In this document: positions 21,401 to 62,794 of the stretch, one piece after another | Layout: each line of letters begins with the position of its first letter | Numbering within the stretch: the stretch's first letter is position 1 | NCBI GenBank assembly: GCA_943736015.1 | Contig: OX031063.1 | Span: 42,424,672 to 42,488,671, forward strand | Length of the DNA stretch: 64,000 nucleotides | From: Tridacna crocea | Taxonomy: Eukaryota; Mollusca; Bivalvia; Cardiida; Cardiidae | Reading direction: 5' to 3' | Program-made: the position numbers and the translations under genes | The notes under the pieces: generated by a model | What the model was told of the DNA's origin: nothing | Database searches by the model: none | What the model saw: the letters and a program-made list of their open reading frames with translations, nothing else

Positions 21401-24400
21401 TACAGTGTACAAAAGGTTTTTCTAAGATTTCATCAAGTGACCTAGTTTTGGACCCGACAAATACCCATTATCAAACTCTTTTGAGACATCACCAAAACAA
21501 ACATTCTGACCAAGTCTGAAGAGTATCAGGCAGAAAATGTAGCCTCTGGAGTGTACACAAGGTTTTTGTAATATTTGACCCATTGACCTAGTTTTTGACT
21601 CCACATGACCCATTTTCAAACTCATTCAAGGTATCACCAGGACAAATATTATGAACAAGTTTTAGGAGTATCAGACTGAAAATGTGTCCTCCAGAGCATA
21701 CAAAAAGTGTTTATAACATCTGACCTATTGACCCAGTTTTTGACCCAACATGACCCATTTTCAAACTCATCCAAGATATTATAAAGGCAAACATTCTGAC
21801 TAATTTTCAAGAGTGTTGGACTGAAAATGTGGCATCCAGAGCATATACACGGTTTTTCTAAGATTTGACCTGGTGACCTAGTTTTTAACCCCCAATGACC
21901 CATTTTCAAACCTGTCTGAGATATCATCAAGACAAACATTCTGACCACCTTACAAGAGTTTCGGACTGAAAATGTGGCCTCTAGAGCCTACAAAAGGTTT
22001 TTCTAAGATTTGACCTAGTGACCTAGTTTTTGACCCCACATGACCCATTTTCGTTCTTGTCCGAGATATCATCCAGGCAAACATCCTGACCAACTTTCAT
22101 GAGTATCCAACTGAAAATGTGGCCTCTAGAGCGTACAAAAGGTTTTTCTAAGATTTGACCTAGTGACCTAGTTTTTGACCCCACGTGACCCATTTTCACA
22201 CTCGTCCAAGATATCATCCAGACAAACATCCTGACCAACTTTCATGAGTATCCGACTGAAAATGTGGCCTCTAGAGCCTACAAAAGGTTTTTCTAAGATT
22301 TGACCTAGTGACCTAGTTTTTGACCCCACGTGACCCATTTTCAAACTCGTCCGAGATATCATCCAGACAAACATCCTGACCAACTTTCATGAGTATCCGA
22401 CTGAAAATGCGGCCTCTAGAGCCTACAAAAGGTTTTTCTAAGATTTGACCTGGTGACCTAGTTTTTGACCCCACGTGACCCACTTTTGAACTCGTCCGAG
22501 ATATCATCCAGACAAACATCCTGACCAACTTTCATGAGTATCCGACTGAAAATGTGGCCTCTAGAGCCTACAAAAGGTTTTTCTAAGATTTGACCTGGTG
22601 ACCTAGTTTTTGACCCCACGTGACCCACTTTCGAACTTGTCCGAGATATCATCCAGACAAACATTCTGACCAACTTTCAGGAGTATCTGACTGAAAATGT
22701 GGCCTCTAGAGCGTAGACAAGGTTTTTCTAAGATTTGACCTGGTGACCTAGTTTTTGACCCCAAGTGACCCATTTTCGAACTTGTCCGAGATATCATCAA
22801 GACAAACATCCTGACCAACTTTCATGAGTATCCGACTCAAAATGCGGCCTCTAGAGCGTACACAAGGTTTTTCTAAGATTTGACCTGGTGACCTAGTTTT
22901 TGACCCCACCTGACCCATTTTCGAACTCGTCCGAGATATCATCAAGACAAACATCCTGACCAACTTTCATGAGTATCCGACTCAAAATGCGGCCTCTAGA
23001 GCATACACAAGGTTTTTCTAAGATTTGACCTAGTGACCTAGTTTTTGACCCCACATGACCCATTTTCGAACTCGTCCGAGATTTCATCGAGACAAACATC
23101 CTGACCAACTTTCATGGGTATCCAACCAAAACTGTGGCCTCTAGAGCGTACACAAGGTAAAAAGTTGACGACGCACGACGGACGCCGGACACAGCACGAT
23201 CACAATAGCTCACCATGAGCACTTTGTGCTCAGGTGAGCTAAAAATGCTGGTACCCAGCATTTTCTCCTTTTCCTACAATGTTTTCTTCCCTGCTGGAAA
23301 CAAATTTCAATTTTTGATTTACATATAATTTGTCGTCTGCAAGTGCTTTCAATTTGGACCAGTCTACAATTTTGTCATTTGGTAAAGAGTTAACCAGTAT
23401 CATTTCCATTAACAGCAATGTTTTCATATGCCTTCTTCACCAGTGCTGTTGAAATATGGAATCATATGGTATTAAAAAGGTTATGTTGGCTGCACTATAC
23501 ATGTACTACTCATGATATTTATACTATGAGTTACTGCTGAGTACTTTCTATATAGCACACTTACCCATCTCCTTGGTTATATTGAAAATGAGCGAAACGT
23601 CTGAAATTATGTTAAACTGGTGTTGCATTTTGTGAACAATAGAAAAAGGTACAATAAAGATTTGAGATGATAAAAGTTTATCTAACTCCACACATTCTTT
23701 TGTTTAACCTATTACTACACAATCCCTACTTTTAATGACCTTGAGAAAGAAGCCTGTAGAAAACATTGTTGGAAAAGGAGAAAATGCTGTTAAACAGTAT
23801 TTTCTCTTTTTCCCACGATGTTTCTGCCCTTCACAAAAAAAAAAATGTTCAGTCACTTTTATTTTGTCATCTGCAAATGCTTTTGATTTAATTCAACAAA
23901 GCTAAAATTTTGTCGTTTGGTAATGAGTTAAGTCTTTACCACACAATCCCAGATTTAATTCTTCCTAAAGATCACTTCCATTACATGCCAAATAGCTGCT
24001 AAAAGTAAAAATATGGGTGCTAAATGCATTGAACTTAAATCATGCCATTTAACCCATTACCAATTGACAATATTTTAGACTGGCCAAAATTGAAAGCATT
24101 TGCAGATGACAAAATGAAAGTGGCTGAAAATTTGAAATTTGTTTTGTGAAGGGTAGAAAACATTGTGGGAAAAGGAAAAAATGCTGGTTACTTGCATTTT
24201 CTCCTTTTCCCACAATGTTTTCTAAAGGCTTCTTTCTCGGGGGCATCAAAAGTAGGGGTTGTGTGGTAATGGGTTAAAAGTATGAAAATCATTGTGAGGG
24301 TGACACTTTCAAGTTTGTTATTGTATGGTCGGTCCAAGTGTTAATCTCTGGCAGAAAAAGGAATTCTAAAACCACGAAAAAGCAAAAAAAAAATAAAATA

Positions 24401-52400: not shown

Positions 52401-53872
52401 ACCTCCGTAACAAAAAGGGAAGGATTTGATTGTTCAGGAATATTCAATGTTGACACTGGTATTAATACGGCAAATTTATTTTGAAAGACACATTCCTAGT
52501 GCTTATGATGCATATCTACAATAATCATTTAGTGGAAACATAACCGTTTAATAGTATGTTTAATATTACAAGAGAACTCATTTGGCACCTCCTTTCAACC
52601 CCCAGCATGGGTCCCAGACACAACACTTGCGGCCGTTTGTTTTTATTTTGAAAATATACATTGGTGGTGGTGTCAAAATAGGTCATACCCTCAAGATAAC
52701 ATCTTAAGTGAAGTCACTTTTGTCAGAAAAAATATTTCGTTACGGATGTTAGTCGTTACGGATGTTAGAAATATTTCATTGAAAGTGACATTTAGCGTAG
52801 GAGATGCAGGAGAGACTCACATGCACTTTTTCAATTATCTATCCTTGATTGTGTCCAAACTAAAACGGTGTCAATTTCACAGGGACCAATCAATTTATGG
52901 TAGAAAAGAATTTTTCCCAAATAGCTTTTTTGTATTTCATATGTATCAGTCAGCTCAACTTTAAGGGAATGTTAAAAATTATCGAAGGGTTGTGAGCTCT
53001 ATTCATTCCACAACTGAAAAAAGGTATTTTAGAGTACATGTCACAGTTCAAAAGACTTGCAATAAATTGATCAAAATGTGTTACGGACGTTAGGTATGAT
53101 TTTGCGACAAATGATTTTGGATGAAGGAATATATAAGCTCTGGATATAATTAAGAAAAGTATCCAAATACGGAAGATATTAGTTGTGTCAATTGAAAAAA
53201 TAAAGTATACGACCCGATTCTTCCTAATCTTAAGATACAGCATAAGTACACATACTGTGTATAGTACCTGCGACAGGCAAAATTTAACAATATCCATCCA
53301 ATTAAAAGGATACTATTGTCACAAAAATGAATCTGATGACTTTCAAAGTATACTTATTTTAGACTAGTATCATCAGTGATATAAAAATAATTGGTCTGTC
53401 TGTCATTTGTATGTAATCATTAGAGTAATTCACGTATTTATTGTTGCGACAAGCATTTTTCGTAATTGTACCCATTTTTGGAGAATGACTGTAAAGTGGC
53501 TCACAACTGTAATAACTGCTCTTATTTGTATTATTCTGAATTTAAACCATGTGTATTGATAAGACAGTTGTCATTCAGCCATTAGCATTTTTTTTTTGCT
53601 TCTGTCATGTGTAGAGATATATTTGAGGGAAAAAAATTAATTCCACATCAATTTAAGGTCGATATTTATAGGGGCCGACTTAACGCAATCAGGCCAATTG
53701 GCCAACTTAGGTTTGCAAGAAACGTAAAAGCAAAAGTAGTAAATTCTCTTTTGTCGAGTAATTCGAATTTTTATTCAAAATCTATGAACGTTGTCGATTT
53801 GTATCGATTTACCGAGGTTTCTTCGTGAAACTCAAGTTCATCTTTTGGTGTTTGTTTCTCCACGTCAGTCAT
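43307..53872 (-). CDS. YIPF6: YIPF6 (Yip1 domain family member 6), near-complete, seven exons
   Basis: YIPF6 is a five-pass Golgi membrane protein of the Yip1 family, reported to pair with YIPF1 and YIPF2. Exons read on the minus strand: 53872-53813 (likely first), 48213-48112, 46410-46332, 45566-45524, 45150-45022, 44460-44300 and 43425-43307, all GT-AG with matching phases. Together they give about 230 aa (human 236). Landmarks: EVPLEGDITVPG; VKDTI-MRDLKAVAVKFWHVL; the Yip1 hallmark DLWGPLILC; GGPQFAEVFVIYWVGA; LNTKLLGGDMI; FQSVCVLGYCVFPLTVSLI; the AESQPPSRK loop; and a last membrane segment YPIFLFYFVISWLIISH ending in HTHS. Hydrophobic segments fall in the last five exons, as expected. The 4.3-8-kb introns hold MITEs, and the first holds a 2.8-kb TIR element. 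It lies divergent to CCDC134. Confidence 0.93.
43700..43980 (+). repeat. Dispersed repeat with GGCTGCTTTCCCACA boxes
   Basis: The box occurs at 43759 and 43915 and again at about 4460, with similar surrounding text (CAATGACCAT, TTCAGCTAC), so a low-copy family; identity unknown. Confidence 0.4.
44085..44187 (-). mobile_element. MITE A fragment
   Basis: Apex ATGCTGATCACCAGTAT and short arm ending GTGTAGTAAA; close upstream of the YIPF6 last exon acceptor side. Confidence 0.5.
44300..44460 (-). CDS. YIPF6: YIPF6 exon 6
   Basis: Acceptor with a long T tract, donor GTGAGT. Encodes SIFQSVCVLGYCVFPLTVSL, the GY..P Yip1 motif, and a second hydrophobic segment FAIRFVAVVLGFGWSTF. Confidence 0.95.
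44523..44755 (-). mobile_element. MITE A
   Basis: TTAA at both ends; inside YIPF6 intron 5. Confidence 0.86.
45022..45150 (-). CDS. YIPF6: YIPF6 exon 5
   Basis: Acceptor CATACAG, 129 nt, donor GTAAGT. Encodes ILQGSEDRDKMGDGGPQFAE and VFVIYWVGAFVVTLNTKLLG, matching human GGPQFAEVFVIVWFGA. Confidence 0.95.
45396..45482. repeat. 41-bp tandem duplication
   Basis: GATATCAATTTTATTTTACA through ATTATCTCAAAA occurs twice back to back in the YIPF6 intron 4 region, without differences. Confidence 0.92.
45524..45566 (-). CDS. YIPF6: YIPF6 exon 4 (43 nt)
   Basis: Acceptor CTTACAG, donor GTGAGT. Encodes WDLWGPLILCVFMA, the conserved DLxGP start of the first membrane segment. Confidence 0.94.
45600..45809 (-). 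mobile_element. MITE A, degenerate
   Basis: ACAGTTCGCCACACAACAGT end; apex ATGCTACCTACCAGCAT. Confidence 0.65.
45922..46138 (+). mobile_element. MITE A
   Basis: TTAA at both ends; hairpin eroded. A further apex fragment lies at 46215-46258. Confidence 0.72.
46332..46410 (-). CDS. YIPF6: YIPF6 exon 3
   Basis: Acceptor TTTACAG, 79 nt, donor GTATGT. Encodes MRDLKAVAVKFWHVLIPKK and SSALLRE, matching human MRDLKAVGKKFMHVLYPRK. Too short to appear as a sizeable ORF. Confidence 0.94.
46466..46693 (-). mobile_element. MITE B
   Basis: TTAA at both ends; apex TTGCTTGCAACAAGCAA, a matched change in both arms relative to CTCG/CGAG copies. Confidence 0.88.
46861..47089 (-). mobile_element. MITE A
   Basis: TTAA at both ends; a left-end fragment of another copy precedes at 46807-46862. 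Confidence 0.87.
47100..47365 (+). mobile_element. Pearl-like family G copy
   Basis: Shares with 55110-55370: AGAGATCCAAATTTT, GATTCATTGTGGT, GGAGG, GAAATT, and an end AATACGACCCTTGGAGTG against AATACAACCCTTCAGGCG. Confidence 0.62.
47385..47892 (+). mobile_element. MITE A fragments
   Basis: Long arm 47385-47480; opposite left end 47550-47609; hairpin-less right part 47735-47892 ending GGAAAAGAGCTAA. None is complete. Confidence 0.5.
48112..48213 (-). CDS. YIPF6: YIPF6 exon 2
   Basis: Acceptor CTTTCAG, 102 nt in phase 0, donor GTATGA. Encodes TLNEVPLEGDITVPGLK through DEPVKDTI, matching human DIPVEGEITIP and ESVRNTI. Confidence 0.93.
48788..49015 (-). mobile_element. MITE A
   Basis: Shares TTAA 49012-49015 with the next copy; right arm uses CCCACTGTGTTTTC. 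Confidence 0.86.
49012..49240 (-). mobile_element. MITE A
   Basis: Both arms carry the ACACTGTG/CACAGTGT variant. Confidence 0.88.
49510..49690 (+). mobile_element. TIR MITE family F, left end lost
   Basis: AACTTTTTACATGGACCACT and GGGAAACCCTAAACTGAGAT align with the copy at 42013. Confidence 0.6.
49708..49966 (+). repeat. Family E, long copy
   Basis: AAAGAGGCTTACTGCATCAA, TTATGGATCCATATAGAC, then a hairpin CCCAGGTCAGCCTGTGCAGA with CAGGCTGACCTGGG, then AAGCCCCCTTTTCACAGAGC. Confidence 0.7.
50163..50690 (-). repeat. Dispersed repeat, inverted partner of 26555-27095
   Basis: Runs up to the TIR element of 50697, which appears to have inserted in or next to its end (GTCTAATCATTGAGAATAAA). Confidence 0.75.
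50697..53491. mobile_element. 2.8-kb TIR element with iterated GTTACGGANGTTAG
   Basis: About 30-bp TIRs starting CAGTCATTCTC(A/C)AAAAA and continuing TGGGTACAATTA, one mismatch between the two ends. Flanking TAAA at 50693 and 53492 may be the target duplication. The interior has no transposase-like ORF. It carries nine copies of the 14-bp motif: plus at 50881, 51253, 51596; minus at 52059, 52226, 52398; plus at 52739, 52755, 53080. It lies in the proposed first intron of YIPF6. Confidence 0.82.
53813..53872 (-). CDS. YIPF6: YIPF6 likely first coding exon
   Basis: ATG in context AAAATGACTG at 53872, then TDVEKQTPKDELEFHEETS, and a donor GTAAAT in phase 0 that fits the phase-0 acceptor of exon 2. 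An acidic soluble N-terminus of this length fits the family, but the sequence there is not conserved, so the call rests on start, phase and position upstream. Confidence 0.55.
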
Positions 53873-54855: not shown

Positions 54856-55030
54856 ATGTATGTCAAACGTCTGATGCTGACCTATATTGTATATGCAGTT
54901 GTAGTAGTTGGCTTGCTTCGTATCAATGTTGTGTTGACAGAGGAGGCAGAAGTCACAGTTGAAACCACAGAAAACCCAGATGGAACAGTCACAGGGACTC
55001 TGCCAGAAACACATAAATCTGTAGAAACAT
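54856..55030 (+). CDS. CCDC134: CCDC134 coding exon 1 (signal peptide)
   Basis: Acceptor TTTTTCAG ends at 54839; the first ATG is 54856. Encodes MYVKRLMLTYIVYAVVVVGL, then an acidic linker, ending HKSVETY with the splice after the first base of TAT. The next bases, ATATCCTTTT, are a textbook U12 5' site. An alternative in-frame GT donor is at 55061. Confidence 0.85.
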
Positions 55031-58000
55031 ATATCCTTTTTTCTTTTATAATGTCAGAGGGTATAGCACCAATAAAATACTGTAAAGTATTGTGTAACAA
55101 GAACTTCGCAGAGTGGTGCATATATGCCCAAAGGGGCTCGTCAGTGAAATGGGTTTATATCAAGCATGCCTAAAGAGATCCAAATTTTGAAAGTCACACA
55201 TACAGCTACATATCGGAGATTCATTGTGGTTAGCTTCAAGTTATTGCGATGGAAACTGTGGGAGGAGGTGCGCGCACGAGAAATTACTTACAGACAGACA
55301 AACAGAAGGACGGACGACAAGGGCCATTACATACATGTAATACAACCCTTCAGGCGGTTAAAAAGAGCTGAAGATGAGGTGTTTGTTATTTCAGAGAATG
55401 ATATATGTCAGTAATATTGAAAATTCTTTAAGAAACAATCCTGTTTTATAACAACCTGGTGGAAGAGAAGATTGTTGAACTTCGAAAACATTGTTTGAAA
55501 AAGGAGAAAATGCTTGTAACCAGTAATTTTTCCTTGTCCCACAGCTTTTTCTTTTTTTTTTTCAGAGAAAATACATGTACCATCATTTGCCTATAGTTTT
55601 GGTAACTCTTCACCAAATGACAAATTTTAGACTGGTCCAAATTGAAAGCACTTGCAGATGACAAATGTAACTCAAAAATTGAAATTAGTCTCCAGCAGGG
55701 TAGAAAACATTGTGGGAAAAGGACAAAATGCTTTTTCTTAGCATTTCCTCCTTTTTTCCGCAATGTTTTCAAAAGGCCTCCATCTCAGAGTTGTACAAAC
55801 CAGGAATTTGTTGGGGAAAGGCTTTAATTAAAGTCTTAGATTGCATCATGACTGTATAATTTTGTTACTCCCCTGATGTCCGTAATCCTAGATACATCTG
55901 TACTATTCGTTTTCATTTGGCTTTTTTAACCAATTTCATCTTTATTTTATGAACTATAATCACCCTTGTATGTTGAGTTGTATCTTCATGCCAAGTATTG
56001 CCCTGATAGTTGCAAGGTTTTACAGATTATGATGGATAGAAAATGTATTCTTAATTGGAGACATATAGCAAGAGTTTCTTTATACCGTACACTTCATATA
56101 GTGATTATTTATCTCTTTACAAAACTATAATTTTGAAAAAAGGTAGAGTTTTACCATTGAATAGTTCTCTTTTTGAATGGAAACATTTTCAAAAACCTAC
56201 ACATGTGCTTTGAAATTCTGACCACATATGTTACAAAGTAGTGTGGTAATACATATGCATAAATTCTGTGATTCTTTAACCTCATGTTCAGATATAAGAT
56301 TGTTTAAACAGCATAGAGCTATACAGTTAGATGCAGTGAAGTCAATACAGAAGTTTAGCAGCAGTTATGAGAAACAGTACAAGTTGGTCAAGACCATAGT
56401 CCAGCAGCTTTTCAACGTATGATAACTTTTTACCAAACAACAAAATTTTAGACCGGTCCAAATTGAAAGCAGTTGCAGACAACAAAATTAACATAACTCA
56501 AAAATTGCAATTGGTTTCAGGCAGGGTAGAAAACATTGTGGGAAAAGGAGAAAATGCTGGTTACCAATGTTTTCTAAAGGCTTCCATCCCAGGGTGGTAA
56601 AAACCAGGGATTGTTTGGTAAAGGGATAGATGAATATTTTACTTGTTCTGAAGTTACCTAAGCATAACTTAGCCCTGTACCACACAATCCTCGATTTTAA
56701 CAACTCTTAGGAAGAAGACTTTTGAAAACATTGTGGGAAAAGGAGAAAATGCTGGTAAGCACCATTTTCTCCTTTTTCCTGCTATGTTTTCTACCTTTCC
56801 CATAACAAGTTTTAATTTTTGAGTTATATTTAATTATGTCGTCTGCAAATGTTTTGGATTTCAGCAAGTCTAAAATTTTGATGTCTGGTAGAGGGTTAAG
56901 ACGCTTTTCGAGAGATCACTCTGCTCAGAGTATTTCTTTCATTTCAAAATGAAAATGTCTCAGGTTTTGCTAAATTAATTTAGAGTCCAATGGGAGAGCG
57001 GCTTTTAACAACCCTGAAAAAGAAAGCCTTTAAAAACAATATGGGAAAAGGAGAAAGTGCTGGTAACCAGCATTTTCTCCTCTTCCCACAATGTTTTCTA
57101 CCCTTTCCTGATAAAATTTCAATTTTTGATTCACATATATTTTGTCTTTTGCAAATGCTTTCAATTTGAACTAGTCCAAAATTTTGTCGTTTGGTAAAGA
57201 GTTAACCCCTATTCCAAAAAGCATTCTTCACTTACTTTTTTGCATTTTAACCCTTTATCCAAAAATGCACTTTAAGAGAGAAGCTCTTGGAAAACGTTTT
57301 GGGAAAGGCTGAAAATGCTGTTTATCAGTATTTCTCCTTTTTCCTCGTTGTATTCTACCTACAGAACATCAGTTTATTAGTACCACTTAAGGATTTATTT
57401 GCTGCAGATGCTTTGAATTTGGAAGAGTCTAAAATTGTCATTTAATTGTATTCAAAAGTTTGAAATATTTCAATAGTGAAACTATTTGGGGTGTCTTGAA
57501 ATTCAGCAACATTTTATTGGCAATGTTGGAATGAATGCCAACAAAATGTTTGTTTGTGTCTCACTGCCTTTTCTGTATCAGTCAAGACACAAAGAAGGTA
57601 AAACCCTTTTCCTTTTTCCACAATGTATTTAAAAAGTTTTCTATTTCAGGGACATAAAAATTGAGCCTTGCCCAGTGAAAATAGGTGTAACTCATTACCA
57701 AACAACAATATTTTAGACTGGTCCAAATTGAAAGCATTTGCAGACGACAAAATAAAAGTGACTGAAAATTTGAAATTTGTTTTGTGAAGGGCAGAAAACA
57801 TTGTGGGAAAAGGAGAAAATGCTGGTTACCAGCATTTTCTCCTCTTCCCACAATGTTTTCTAAAGGCTTCTTTCTCAGGGGCGTCAAAAGTAGGGATTGT
57901 GTGGTAATGGGTTAATGCTTACGCAAAGAGTAGTGACCAAGGTCACTATGCACAGTATATGCAGGGTGACCTAGGCTAAACTTGTTTCCTATTGGTAACC

Positions 58001-61000
58001 AGCATTTTCTTCTTTTCCAACAACGTTTTTTACCCTATCCGAAACAGATTCCGATTTGAGTCATGTTTATTTTGTCATCTGTAAATGCATTCAGTTTGGA
58101 CCAGTGTAAAACTGTGTCGTTTGGTAAAAAGTTAAACCCAGAACGCTTCTCAAATTATTATACATGTATTTGGATTGTAATGCGGTACATACTCATCATT
58201 TTTGCTTCTTGTGCGCCATGTTTCTATTCCTTTTTACTAAATGTTGTTGTATTTTATTCCAGGTTATATCAGATTCAAAACTAAAATTGGTAGATTTTGG
58301 TTACATTCCTGGAGATCCTTTCCCAGAAAATGATACAGTCAGAGAAGGTAGAATTTAAGTACTACAGATTGATATCAGTCTATTATGAAATTTACAAGGC
58401 TTTTTTCCTTGGCTCACAGTGTTTTCAAATCTTCTTAGCATCTTCTATTACAAATAAGATATTGATTTATAAATGAAATTACATCACTGAAATTGTTTGA
58501 AGGGTATATAACAAATGTTGGAGAACGAGAAAATGCTGGTCACTAGGATTTTCTCCTTTTTCTCAGATTTTCAAAAGTAAGACATTAAAATTTTGTTGTT
58601 AATCTAAACCAAATAATTTAACCACTGAAAAAAAAAGATACTTTCAAAATCAAGAATATGACTAAGGAAGCAACTTAATAGAAGTGACCTTGCATATTTG
58701 ACTATACTTTGCAATCAAACTTTCTCTTAATTTGTTGCTAAAATTTCTAAAATTATTTGAAAACTGTACAGAAATCAGTTAAGGAAATCAGTTAAGGATT
58801 TGATTTACATACACCAACCATATTCTGTTGCAGCCTTGTCAAAAGTACTGGAAAATACAGCAATGTTTGGTGACTTGATTCTACGCTTACCAGATATTAC
58901 ACATGCTGTTTACAAGAAAAATAAGGAATGGGAGTTTCTGATTGGATGGTCAGTTTGGACAGCAATAGAATCAAAAATATTTCAAGGTGCAGATGGGAAA
59001 ATGTTGAATCTGGTGAGTATATGTATTCAAGAGATTCTATCTCTTTTATAGGATCTATTTTCAGCTTGAGTAGGTCATATCAACTCTTTACGGTTACCAA
59101 ATGACAAACTTTTGGACATGTCCAAACTGAAAGCATTTGCAGACCACAAATTAAAGGTGGCTCAGATGGCAAAGGTAGTCCTTGATAGGGTAGAAAACAT
59201 TGTTGGAAAAGGAGAAAATGGTGGTTACCAGTAACCATTCCCTGCAATGTTTTCTACTCTTCCAAAGACATCTCCAATCACTTGAGCCATACCTAATTTT
59301 TCATCTGCAAGTGCTTTTCAGTTTTTCTTTGAGAAAGAAACCTTTTGAAAACATTGTGGTGACCGGCATTTTCTCCTTTTCCTACTACGTTTTTTACCCT
59401 AGGGAAGAAAAATGTCACGATTTGAGCCACATTGAAATTATCTGCAATTGCTTATAATTTTGAGAAAGCTAAAATTTGTCTTGTTAAAGGATTGATGACT
59501 GTCTTTGTGACAGAGTTTATTCGTCATCTCTTTACTCACTCACATATTTCACCATAAATAAAGAGCAAAAGACTCATTCTTTTGCTGATAGCAAGGAGCA
59601 AATGCTATGGATTTAATTGTTGATTCGACCTCACAATGTAACAACAGAAACATGATTAAATCTATTAAATCAAAAACATATCATCCACGTCATAGCCAAA
59701 ACCACGACGTCTAGCCAAAAAACAGAGAATTCACTCTGAAAAAGATGTATCCCAGAACAGTAAAGCAGGTATGTGGAATTTCATAGGAACTACCAATGTA
59801 GGAGAAATATTATTACATAACTGAACACAGTGTACCTGTCGTCAAGGCGTACTTGGTAGAACTGACTCCTTCTCGGTCCATCTACCCGTACTTTGTTTGT
59901 GCTCTCATCTGATTGGTCAATCCTTCGTAAATGTGTCATAACAACTTTGTAGCAGGTGCGTATCAAGAAGACAAAGCTTTTTCGCTATACTGCATACTGC
60001 GGAAAAGAAATATTCTCTCACCTCTCACCATTGAATGTTGTTTTAATAAATTCATATGGCAATTGTAGCAAGTGAGTTGGAAAGAGTCTTCTGCAAAGTG
60101 TTAATAAAACACTGAAAACACTGAGACAGTTGAAATGTTTTTGTTATGAGGGAAACAAGGTTAGAAACAGCAGAAAATCATTTGATGCTCCTAGTTTATA
60201 TGTAGATGAGTAGATTTATGGTGGTTTTAATTTTTGTTTCTTTTGTTTTAGATGTCACAAGAACTTGGATTAATACCAAAAGAAGAAGATTACGTGAACC
60301 CATACAAAGAGGAGGAATCATTGAAAGTAGGATAGATGTAAAACTTCTTTCATAGGTTATTCTGAATAGCATTATCAAACAACAAAACAAAAGTCTAGTT
60401 CATTTTGCAGATGACTAATTCAAACAAGTTCATAAGATAGGATGTCTCTGAAACCCTTTACCACATAATCCGGACTTTTACTGACCTGACGTAAAACAGC
60501 TTTTGAAAACATTGTGGAAAAGGAGAAAATGCTGGTTACATGTATTTTCTCCTTTACCTACAAAGTTTTCCACCCTTTCAAGGACAAACTTCTTAATTTG
60601 TGCAACTTTTTTGTAACAAAAGTCTACAAATGCTTTCAATTAAGATGACTTCAAATTTTTGTCGCTTGGTAGAGTTAAAGGGGAAGAAAATATTGGTTCA
60701 AAAGGAGAAAAAATGATGTTTTCCCACGGTGTTTTCAGAGGCTATCTTTTCCAGCATTGTTAAAACTTTGGATTGTTTGGTAACAACTGAACATAGCTGC
60801 AAAAAGATAGCCCATTGCTTTACAGATTAATTTGAGACCCATCAAATACTTCTACAAATCAAGTGAAGAAAAAGCGTTTGATGGAAGAAATACATCTATA
60901 ATTATACTAATTTTGTAATATTTTCATGAAAATATTGCTACTTTTGCAACAAGCACTGAATAAATCAAGAAACAGAAAGACTGATGTTGCTAAGGTAGTG

Positions 61001-61542
61001 CTGGCTGTCAATAAATTCTAGTTTTTGATCCTTACTTTGTCCCAGTCTTTTCATAAACCATTTCCTCTGAGTTCTAACTTCTTAACGCTGTACCAAATGC
61101 CAAAGTTTTAATTTGGTCCAGCATTTGATGAAAAATTAATGTGACTCAAAAATTGAAACTTTTACTGTCTGGGTATAAAACATTATGGGAAAAGGAGAAA
61201 ATGCTGTTTACCAGCATTTTCTCCTTTTCCCACGATGTTTTGAAAAGGCTTCTTTCTCAGAGTTGTGAAAACCTGGGATTGTTTGGTAAAAAATTAAATT
61301 AGGTTTTGTTTGGTAAGGTAATGAAATGACATCAGTTTCTTTCCTTTCTATAAAAGCAATTTGCAGATTTGTCATGGCATCTTTTTTTGATACATGTAGT
61401 GGTAGTTTTATATTATTTGCAGAAGATGGAAAGTCCAAAAGGAACAGATCAGGATAAAAAGAAGAAATCCAAGGAGAAAAAGAGAGTCAAAGAGAAGAAG
61501 AAAGGACCAAGACTAAGTGGAACATCTCATACAGAGTTATAG
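54856..61542 (+). CDS. CCDC134: CCDC134, complete coding sequence in six exons
   Basis: CCDC134 is a small ER-luminal/secreted protein; the vertebrate protein ends in an ER-retention-like QSEL and acts with the HSP90B1 chaperone. Join 54856-55030, 56292-56416, 58263-58347, 58834-59012, 60252-60326, 61423-61542 gives 759 nt, 252 aa (human 229). An N-terminal hydrophobic signal sequence (MLTYIVYAVVVVGLL) is followed by an acidic Thr/Glu linker. The conserved core has ETYIRLFKQHRAIQLDAVKS, SYEKQYKLVKTIVQQLF, LENTAMFGDLILRLPDITH, MSQELGLIPKEEDYVNPY, a Lys/Glu-rich tail, and KKGPRLSGTSHTEL (human KGPRISRSQSEL). HTEL at the C-terminus is KDEL-like. Intron 1 appears to be AT-AG U12-type; the others are GT-AG. 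The acceptor at 54839 means a noncoding exon lies upstream. Confidence 0.94.
55110..55370 (+). mobile_element. Pearl-like family G copy in CCDC134 intron 1
   Basis: TACTTACAGACAGACAAACA, GGACGGACGACAAGGGCCAT, terminal CAACCCTTCAGGCGGTTAAA. Confidence 0.62.
55430..55545 (+). mobile_element. MITE A, degenerate
   Basis: Hairpin TTCGAAAACATTGTTTG with partly deleted partner; no long arm. Confidence 0.5.
55601..55827 (-). mobile_element. MITE A
   Basis: Apex degraded to AATGCTTTTTCTTAGCATT; right TTAA at 55824. Confidence 0.78.
56292..56416 (+). CDS. CCDC134: CCDC134 coding exon 2
   Basis: 125 nt after TTCAG; encodes (Y)IRLFKQHRAIQLDAVKSIQ and KFSSSYEKQYKLVKTIVQQL, ending FN before GTATGA. A MITE TIR begins only about 5 bp past this donor. 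Confidence 0.93.
56421..56630 (-). mobile_element. MITE A directly after a splice donor
   Basis: Its TIR (TAACTTTTTACCAAACAAC) starts about 6 bp after CCDC134 exon 2; right hairpin arm deleted. Confidence 0.78.
56668..56898 (+). mobile_element. MITE A
   Basis: Right TTAA at 56895; apex CTGGTAAGCACC. Confidence 0.8.
57002..57467 (+). repeat. 466-bp duplicated block, copy 1
   Basis: Identical in length to 62329-62794 and differs by one base by eye (CTACCTAC against CTACTTAC). Contains most of one MITE A (to 57205) and a second, diverged one (57247-57445). In CCDC134 intron 2. Confidence 0.95.
57247..57445 (+). mobile_element. MITE A, diverged
   Basis: TTAACCCTTTATCCAAAAAT start; hairpin CGTTTTGGGAAAGGCTGAAA poorly paired; ends CATTTAATT. 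Confidence 0.65.
57686..57915 (-). mobile_element. MITE A
   Basis: Near reference, right TTAA at 57912; preceded by a fragment at 57595-57685. Confidence 0.87.
57993..58135 (+). mobile_element. MITE A, right half
   Basis: TTGGTAACCAGCATTTTCTT, then the long arm to TTAA at 58132; a family-E-like hairpin fragment (CAAGGTCACTATGCAC) precedes it. Confidence 0.7.
58263..58347 (+). CDS. CCDC134: CCDC134 coding exon 3
   Basis: Acceptor TATTCCAG, 85 nt, encodes VISDSKLKLVDFGYIPGDPF and PENDTVRE, donor GTAGAA, phase 1. Matches human DGPFPQDEKLKDA. Confidence 0.93.
58495..58578 (-). mobile_element. MITE A fragment
   Basis: Hairpin only: AACGAGAAAATGCTGGTCAC and partner. Confidence 0.5.
58834..59012 (+). 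CDS. CCDC134: CCDC134 coding exon 4
   Basis: Acceptor TGTTGCAG, 179 nt. Encodes ALSKVLENTAMFGDLILRLP through ADGKMLNL, donor GTGAGT. VLENTAMFGDLILRLP is the most conserved block of the family. Confidence 0.95.
59079..59495. mobile_element. Two MITE A copies, recombined
   Basis: 59079-59310 has long arms on both sides of an eroded hairpin; 59325-59495 is a plus copy with the left hairpin arm cut. In CCDC134 intron 4. Confidence 0.6.
59500..60245. other. Intronic stretch, nothing recognised
   Basis: CCDC134 intron 4; no repeat family, exon or RNA gene recognised. Confidence 0.4.
60252..60326 (+). CDS. CCDC134: CCDC134 coding exon 5
   Basis: Acceptor TGTTTTAG, 75 nt, encodes MSQELGLIPKEEDYVNPYKE and EESLK, donor GTAGGA, phase 0. 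Confidence 0.94.
60449..60789 (+). mobile_element. MITE A followed by opposite half copy
   Basis: 60449-60678 is full length ending TTAA; 60675-60789 is a minus-orientation right half. Confidence 0.75.
61082..61297 (-). mobile_element. MITE A
   Basis: TTAA at both ends; ends 125 bp before CCDC134 exon 6. Confidence 0.85.
61423..61542 (+). CDS. CCDC134: CCDC134 terminal coding exon
   Basis: Acceptor ATTTGCAG; encodes a Lys/Glu-rich tail, then KKGPRLSGTSHTEL and TAG at 61540-61542. The C-terminal HTEL resembles an ER-retrieval signal. Confidence 0.95.
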   Translation, partial: KMESPKGTDQDKKKKSKEKKRVKEKKKGPRLSGTSHTEL

Positions 61543-62303: not shown

Positions 62304-62532
62304 ATAACTCTTTACCACACAATCCCGACTTTTAACAACCCTGAAAAAGAAAGCCTTTAAAAACAATATGGGAAAAGGAGAAAGTGCTGGTAACCAGCAT
62401 TTTCTCCTCTTCCCACAATGTTTTCTACCCTTTCCTGATAAAATTTCAATTTTTGATTCACATATATTTTGTCTTTTGCAAATGCTTTCAATTTGAACTA
62501 GTCCAAAATTTTGTCGTTTGGTAAAGAGTTAA
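62304..62532 (+). mobile_element. MITE A (complete version of the duplicated copy)
   Basis: Has the TIR ACTCTTTACCACACAATCCC that the copy at 57002 lacks; right TTAA at 62529. Confidence 0.86.
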
Positions 62533-62794
62533 CCCCTATTCCAAAAAGCATTCTTCACTTACTTTTTTGCATTTTAACCCTTTATCCAAAAATGCACTTT
62601 AAGAGAGAAGCTCTTGGAAAACGTTTTGGGAAAGGCTGAAAATGCTGTTTATCAGTATTTCTCCTTTTTCCTCGTTGTATTCTACTTACAGAACATCAGT
62701 TTATTAGTACCACTTAAGGATTTATTTGCTGCAGATGCTTTGAATTTGGAAGAGTCTAAAATTGTCATTTAATTGTATTCAAAAGTTTGAAATA
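62329..62794 (+). repeat. 466-bp duplicated block, copy 2
   Basis: Partner of 57002-57467. This one has an intact left MITE end, so the donor more likely resembles this copy. Confidence 0.95.
62574..62772 (+). mobile_element. MITE A, diverged
   Basis: Duplicate of the element at 57247. Confidence 0.65.

Follow-up and report, generated by a model that had tools for sequence, protein, structure and literature searches.

The locus raises the question of which spliceosome joins the first two coding exons of the Tridacna crocea CCDC134 gene, as the predicted intron between them would begin with AT and end with AG. The window, i.e., the whole stretch of 64,000 nucleotides that was analysed, lies on contig 8 of a host genome of 1,048,827,098 bases in 31 contigs, and in the spliced model its + strand carries a CCDC134 gene with six coding exons between positions 54856 and 61542. 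The identity of the gene, proposed in an earlier note on this DNA, is borne out: the spliced product of 252 residues matches the PF15002 (ERK-JNK_inhib) profile with 204.1 bits at a cut-off of 27 and thus belongs to this family, and human CCDC134 (PDB 9n9j_B) aligns to it with 129.1 bits. CCDC134 is an endoplasmic-reticulum protein and acts as an ER-chaperone cofactor. The features of the gene are as follows.

54856..55030, + strand: CCDC134 coding exon 1, with start codon, hydrophobic N terminus and a phase 1 end inside the Tyr codon of SVETY (translation and PF15002 match)
55031..56291, + strand: predicted U12-type AT-AG intron of 1261 nt (donor matched at 8/8 and branch site at 9/9 positions; protein joined without a gap)
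55031..55040, + strand: U12-type 5′ splice site ATATCCTTTT, exact match, complementary to the genome's U11 and U6atac
55061..55066, + strand: rival U2-type donor GTATAG, in frame, adding ILFSFIMSED (score -1.51)
56272..56280, + strand: U12-type branch site TTCTTTAAC, exact TTCYTTRAC match, branch A at 56278 or 56279
56290..56291, + strand: 3′ splice site AG (intron end TTCAG), the only gapless in-frame acceptor from donor 55031
56292..56416, + strand: CCDC134 coding exon 2 (spliced model, PF15002 match)
58263..58347, + strand: CCDC134 coding exon 3 (spliced model, PF15002 match)
58834..59012, + strand: CCDC134 coding exon 4 (spliced model, PF15002 match)
60252..60326, + strand: CCDC134 coding exon 5 (spliced model, PF15002 match)
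61423..61542, + strand: CCDC134 coding exon 6, ending in ...SHTEL and the stop codon (spliced model; the PF15002 match extends into this exon)

Searching the whole genome with PF15002 at E<=10 yielded six matches, four of which fall on exons 2-5 of the CCDC134 gene described here. The loci L018 and L019 were considered as CCDC134 retrocopies that would record the spliced junction, and were rejected: their PF15002 scores fall below the cut-off, stops lie inside them, and comparison with the spliced product gave nothing significant (best blastn E 0.17, best tblastn E 4.6). A second CCDC134 copy was found in the genome neither by the PF15002 profile search nor by blastn and tblastn of the spliced product. 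The accessible portions of PMC11607015, PMC12804085 and PMC9413927 held no exon boundary of use for CCDC134.

The junction between exons 1 and 2 is set by homology. Exon 1 ends with ...GTAGAAACAT (...GAAACAT) at 55030 and exon 2 starts with ATATAAGATTG at 56292; when 55031-56291 is taken out, SVETY is joined directly to IRLFKQH in phase 1 with the frame kept, and the junction product SVETYIRLFKQHRAIQL (svetyirlfkqhraiql) aligns without gaps to SLEIYKKMFEVKRREQL of human CCDC134. We scanned GT, GC and AT donors in combination with AG and AC ends over donors 54981-55125 and first exon bases 56255-56311. Among the 26 frame-keeping pairs, only 55030/56292 retained both SVETY and IRLFKQH with zero additions, in line with the earlier claim that the protein reads without a gap only if exon 1 ends at 55030. 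When donor 55031 was combined with each of 57 acceptor positions (56255-56311), whatever their last two bases, 15 were in frame, and solely the AG at 56291, which is also the only AG or AC end among these 15, yielded the gapless SVETYIRLFKQH. Other ends tried from this donor were discarded: an AT end at 56285, just 6 nt past the branch A, is in frame and gives SVETCSDIRLFKQH with two extra residues and loss of the Tyr, an AT end at 56300 loses residues, and AC ends do not keep the frame.

Since ATAT is common to the start of the intron and the start of exon 2, a cDNA would fit five registers (shifts of 0 to 4 nt) and alone cannot fix the register. Only the register given by the U12 motifs has AT-AG ends, and in this motif-fixed register the sequence agrees with the proposed assignment of the intron to the AT-AG subtype.

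The signals themselves are complete; the earlier note had pointed out both, and had called the donor at 55031 a full consensus. ATATCCTTTT matches the donor consensus RTATCCTT at 8 of 8 positions, whereas the other four CCDC134 introns match at 5, 5, 3 and 4. Correspondingly, the branch consensus TTCYTTRAC is matched at 9 of 9 positions, as compared with at best 6, 6, 6 and 7 of 9 within the last 40 bases of the other four introns, and A 56279 lies 12 nt before the final base of the intron, as claimed. Neither motif is enriched in the window, with five branch motifs against 5.55 expected and five copies of RTATCCTT against 4.92 expected, and in the genome ATATCCTTTT occurs 5817 times on both strands (2926+2891), i.e., at ~2.8e-6 per position and strand. 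The joint chance of finding ATATCCTTTT within 31 nt of the homology-set junction together with TTCYTTRAC in ~10 pre-acceptor positions is ~4e-8, a figure that depends on two ranges chosen by the analyst after the site was seen. Unanchored pairs of donor and branch motifs number three in the window on both strands, including this intron, at a simulated mean of 2.0 (60 windows). Motif pairs are thus not rare without a protein anchor, and the weight of the signals rests on their placement at a junction fixed by homology.

The genome also encodes the RNAs that would read these signals. Matches over the Rfam cut-offs were obtained for U11 (four matches, two of them in one cluster, best 91.2 bits), U12 (one match, 105.4 bits), U4atac (one match, 93.9 bits) and U6atac (90.1 and 39.7 bits), so that all four minor-spliceosome snRNAs are represented at the level of genes alone; across the window, Rfam gave nothing above the gathering scores. 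On contig 1 (L009, near 5836296-5836548), a second U11 match of 47 bits lies 22 bases past the best one and is either part of a tandem U11 gene pair or a decayed copy beside the gene. By raw complementarity, ATATCCTTTT forms 7 pairs, one of them G-U, with nucleotides 2-8 of the genome's U11, TCCTTTTTT from intron position +4 forms 9 Watson-Crick pairs with nucleotides 8-16 of U6atac, and TTCTTTAAC forms 8 pairs, one of them G-U, with nucleotides 18-25 of U12, leaving one A bulged. As far as the sequences go, U11, U12 and U6atac can therefore pair with the signals of the intron. In addition, PF14968 (CCDC84/CENATAC) matched contig 10 four times, in the order of the profile and always above the cut-off; in two of these matches, the frame contains one stop. 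According to the accessible text of PMC8280824, CENATAC acts in human cells to promote the removal of AT-AN minor introns.

As a control in the same genome, we examined a gene at loci L035/L036 that contains a zf-Di19 match and which we take to be KCMF1. One exon of this locus alone showed just a U2-like donor, and the U12-like intron was seen in the wider region. Here, ...HVTDDFAAHLTLEHRAPREF (HRAPREF) is followed by ATATCCTTTT, the same donor 10-mer as in CCDC134, and the intron ends with GTCCTTAAT TCATAATCAC, after which the frame continues with DEPTGIRHVRR. By our reading, this would be an AT-AC intron with a donor identical to that of CCDC134; its branch element matches at 7 of 9 positions. 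In the accessible part of PMC2831892, a table row gives the KCMF1 AT-AC intron as U12. The two introns thus have the donor in common, and their branch elements end 11 nt (CCDC134) and 10 nt (KCMF1) before the intron end, whereas they differ in their last bases (AG versus AC), in the branch match (9/9 versus 7/9) and in phase (1 versus 0).

The GT at 55061 is indeed in frame, and in the spliced model its use adds the ten residues ILFSFIMSED, as had been noted. These residues would, according to the earlier note, fall within a conserved helix, a region with which the accessible text of the CCDC134 structure paper PMC12804085 does not deal. It is very improbable that a U2-type GT-AG intron 55061-56291 is the true one and that the U12-like motifs are chance matches or relics. 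This reading keeps the frame, and pyrimidines at 13 of the 17 positions from -20 to -4 of the intron end suit U2 splicing, this stretch starting with the branch motif itself. The donor scores -1.51, lower than the other four CCDC134 donors (-0.32, 0.48, 6.43 and 0.94), of which all except the third are likewise weak, and stands at the 81st percentile among the 3240 + strand GTs of the window. The homology speaks against it: compared with the AT-AG product, the PF15002 score drops by 8.5 bits from 204.1 (profile 7-200) to 195.6 (profile 18-200) and the score against human 9n9j_B by 9 bits from 129.1 to 120.1, and both alignments of the GT-AG product start only past the ten-residue insert. The joint chance of ~4e-8 for the U12 motifs counts against it as well. 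It is also highly unlikely that the true first base of the intron is a G, which would make it a GT-AG U12 intron, and that the A read at 55031 stems from an error in the assembly or from a private allele. The sequence itself gave no hint of such an error. A single base separates AT-AG from GT-AG, and GT-AG is given as the commonest U12 subtype, with 69% of minor introns as against 24% for AT-AC, in the accessible text of PMC8280824.

A twintron or a pair of alternative isoforms, in which splicing mainly removes the U12 AT-AG intron but occasionally starts from the U2 donor at 55061 with the common acceptor and so adds ten residues, is unlikely, yet compatible with the minor-class reading rather than exclusive of it; GT 55061 would perhaps be used more if minor splicing were limiting. 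The in-frame nested layout resembles that of prospero as described in the accessible part of PMC3564746, which also reports 18 human twintrons. As in those U12/U2 twintrons, an in-frame GT donor lies just within the U12 intron, whereas in CCDC134 both putative introns would have one common acceptor. On the other side, the GT donor is weak, and in-frame GTs that arise by chance are not unusual: with 55061, 55082 and 55094, three frame-keeping GT donors exist within 65 nt for the acceptor at 56292, which counts against the AT-AG reading too. That the twintron is regulated, with a poorly spliced, CENATAC-dependent AT-AG U12 intron set against a nested U2 donor of common acceptor, is quite unlikely. 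If it were true, the state of the minor spliceosome would set the ratio of 252- to 262-residue CCDC134, or the level of retained intron, and the AG end would be an intermediate caught between the AT-AC and GT-AG subtypes.

Taken together, the gapless join, the complete donor and branch site, the snRNA genes and the KCMF1-like control indicate that 55031-56291 is very probably a minor-class U12-type AT-AG intron (A type) in the single CCDC134 gene found. The signals, the frame, the homology and the snRNA genes are direct observations. The prior for AT-AG ends is low, because the accessible text of PMC3584512 calls AT-AG a disfavoured combination, a poorly spliced, inefficient intermediate of the AT-AC and GT-AG forms.

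For the minor-class AT-AG intron, we infer splicing as such, the spliceosome used and the exact ends from the DNA. The U11/U12 di-snRNP would read ATATCCTTTT and TTCTTTAAC jointly, U6atac would then take the place of U11 at the donor, and the lariat would form on an A of TTTAAC. The 3′ end would be the first AG downstream, 12 nt on, and the outcome would be the 252-residue protein that is ungapped relative to human CCDC134 at the junction. If the intron remained unspliced, exon 1 would read into it and meet a stop after about 105 residues.

The surroundings of the gene show several further features. A gene divergent from CCDC134 starts at 53872 on the minus strand and runs toward 44247, the two starts lying about 1 kb apart; with the pieces MTDVEKQ..., MGDGGPQFAEVFVI... 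and SVCVLGYCVFPLTV..., it is presumably YIPF6. Three peptides from neighbouring genes, two exon ORFs of this gene among them, had no Pfam match. Also on the minus strand, a U12-like GTATCCTT at 53313 was left as chance; by eye, its flanks did not resemble the end of an exon in the adjacent gene. Throughout the window, a palindromic element with the core GGAGAAAATGCTGG/CCAGCATTTTCTCC recurs (e.g., 57790-57860; 27 and 34 exact + strand copies of the two cores, respectively), which looks like a MITE family, and the predicted U12-type intron contains inverted arms resembling this element (55481-55552/55702-55773 and 55703-55720/55753-55770). Moreover, a stretch of 469 bases in intron 2 (56999-57467) recurs beyond the 3′ end of the coding region (62326-62794) with 99.6% identity and looks like a recent duplication. 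On the minus strand, 22026-23111 holds a tandem array whose repeat unit measures about 145 bases, visible as overlapping similar ORFs (KLVRMFV...).

With regard to novelty, no literature linking CCDC134 with a minor intron was found in a search that had supplements and most subscription papers outside its reach. CCDC134 was not among the matches listed in broader searches of the minor-intron literature, where gene lists may sit in supplements, and the matches listed for molluscs and U12 contained nothing relevant. The accessible portion of PMC10639083 cites molluscs as an example of a group relatively enriched in minor introns; it places AT-AT, and not AT-AG, among the two non-canonical pairs of ends that animal minor introns show most often. 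The kind of intron is known, since AT-AG is described in the accessible parts of PMC3584512, of PMC8280824, which names it among human A-type termini, and of PMC2846911, which mentions a weak candidate for T. pseudonana. Thus, the rare subtype is already documented, and the CCDC134 instance may be new. Because AT-AG is the disfavoured in-between form in PMC3584512, as far as its accessible text goes, a natural candidate with complete donor and branch consensus would provide a usable test of the role of the last base in minor splicing. In practical terms, a gene predictor restricted to GT/GC-AG introns could misplace the end of exon 1 and insert ten spurious residues into the predicted CCDC134 protein.

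Among known systems, the predicted intron is comparable to the A-type (AT-AN) human introns that depend on CENATAC, as presented in the accessible text of PMC8280824. It shares with them the AT start and the U12 donor and branch consensus, whereas it lies in another gene of another species and the CCDC134 case is drawn from sequence alone.
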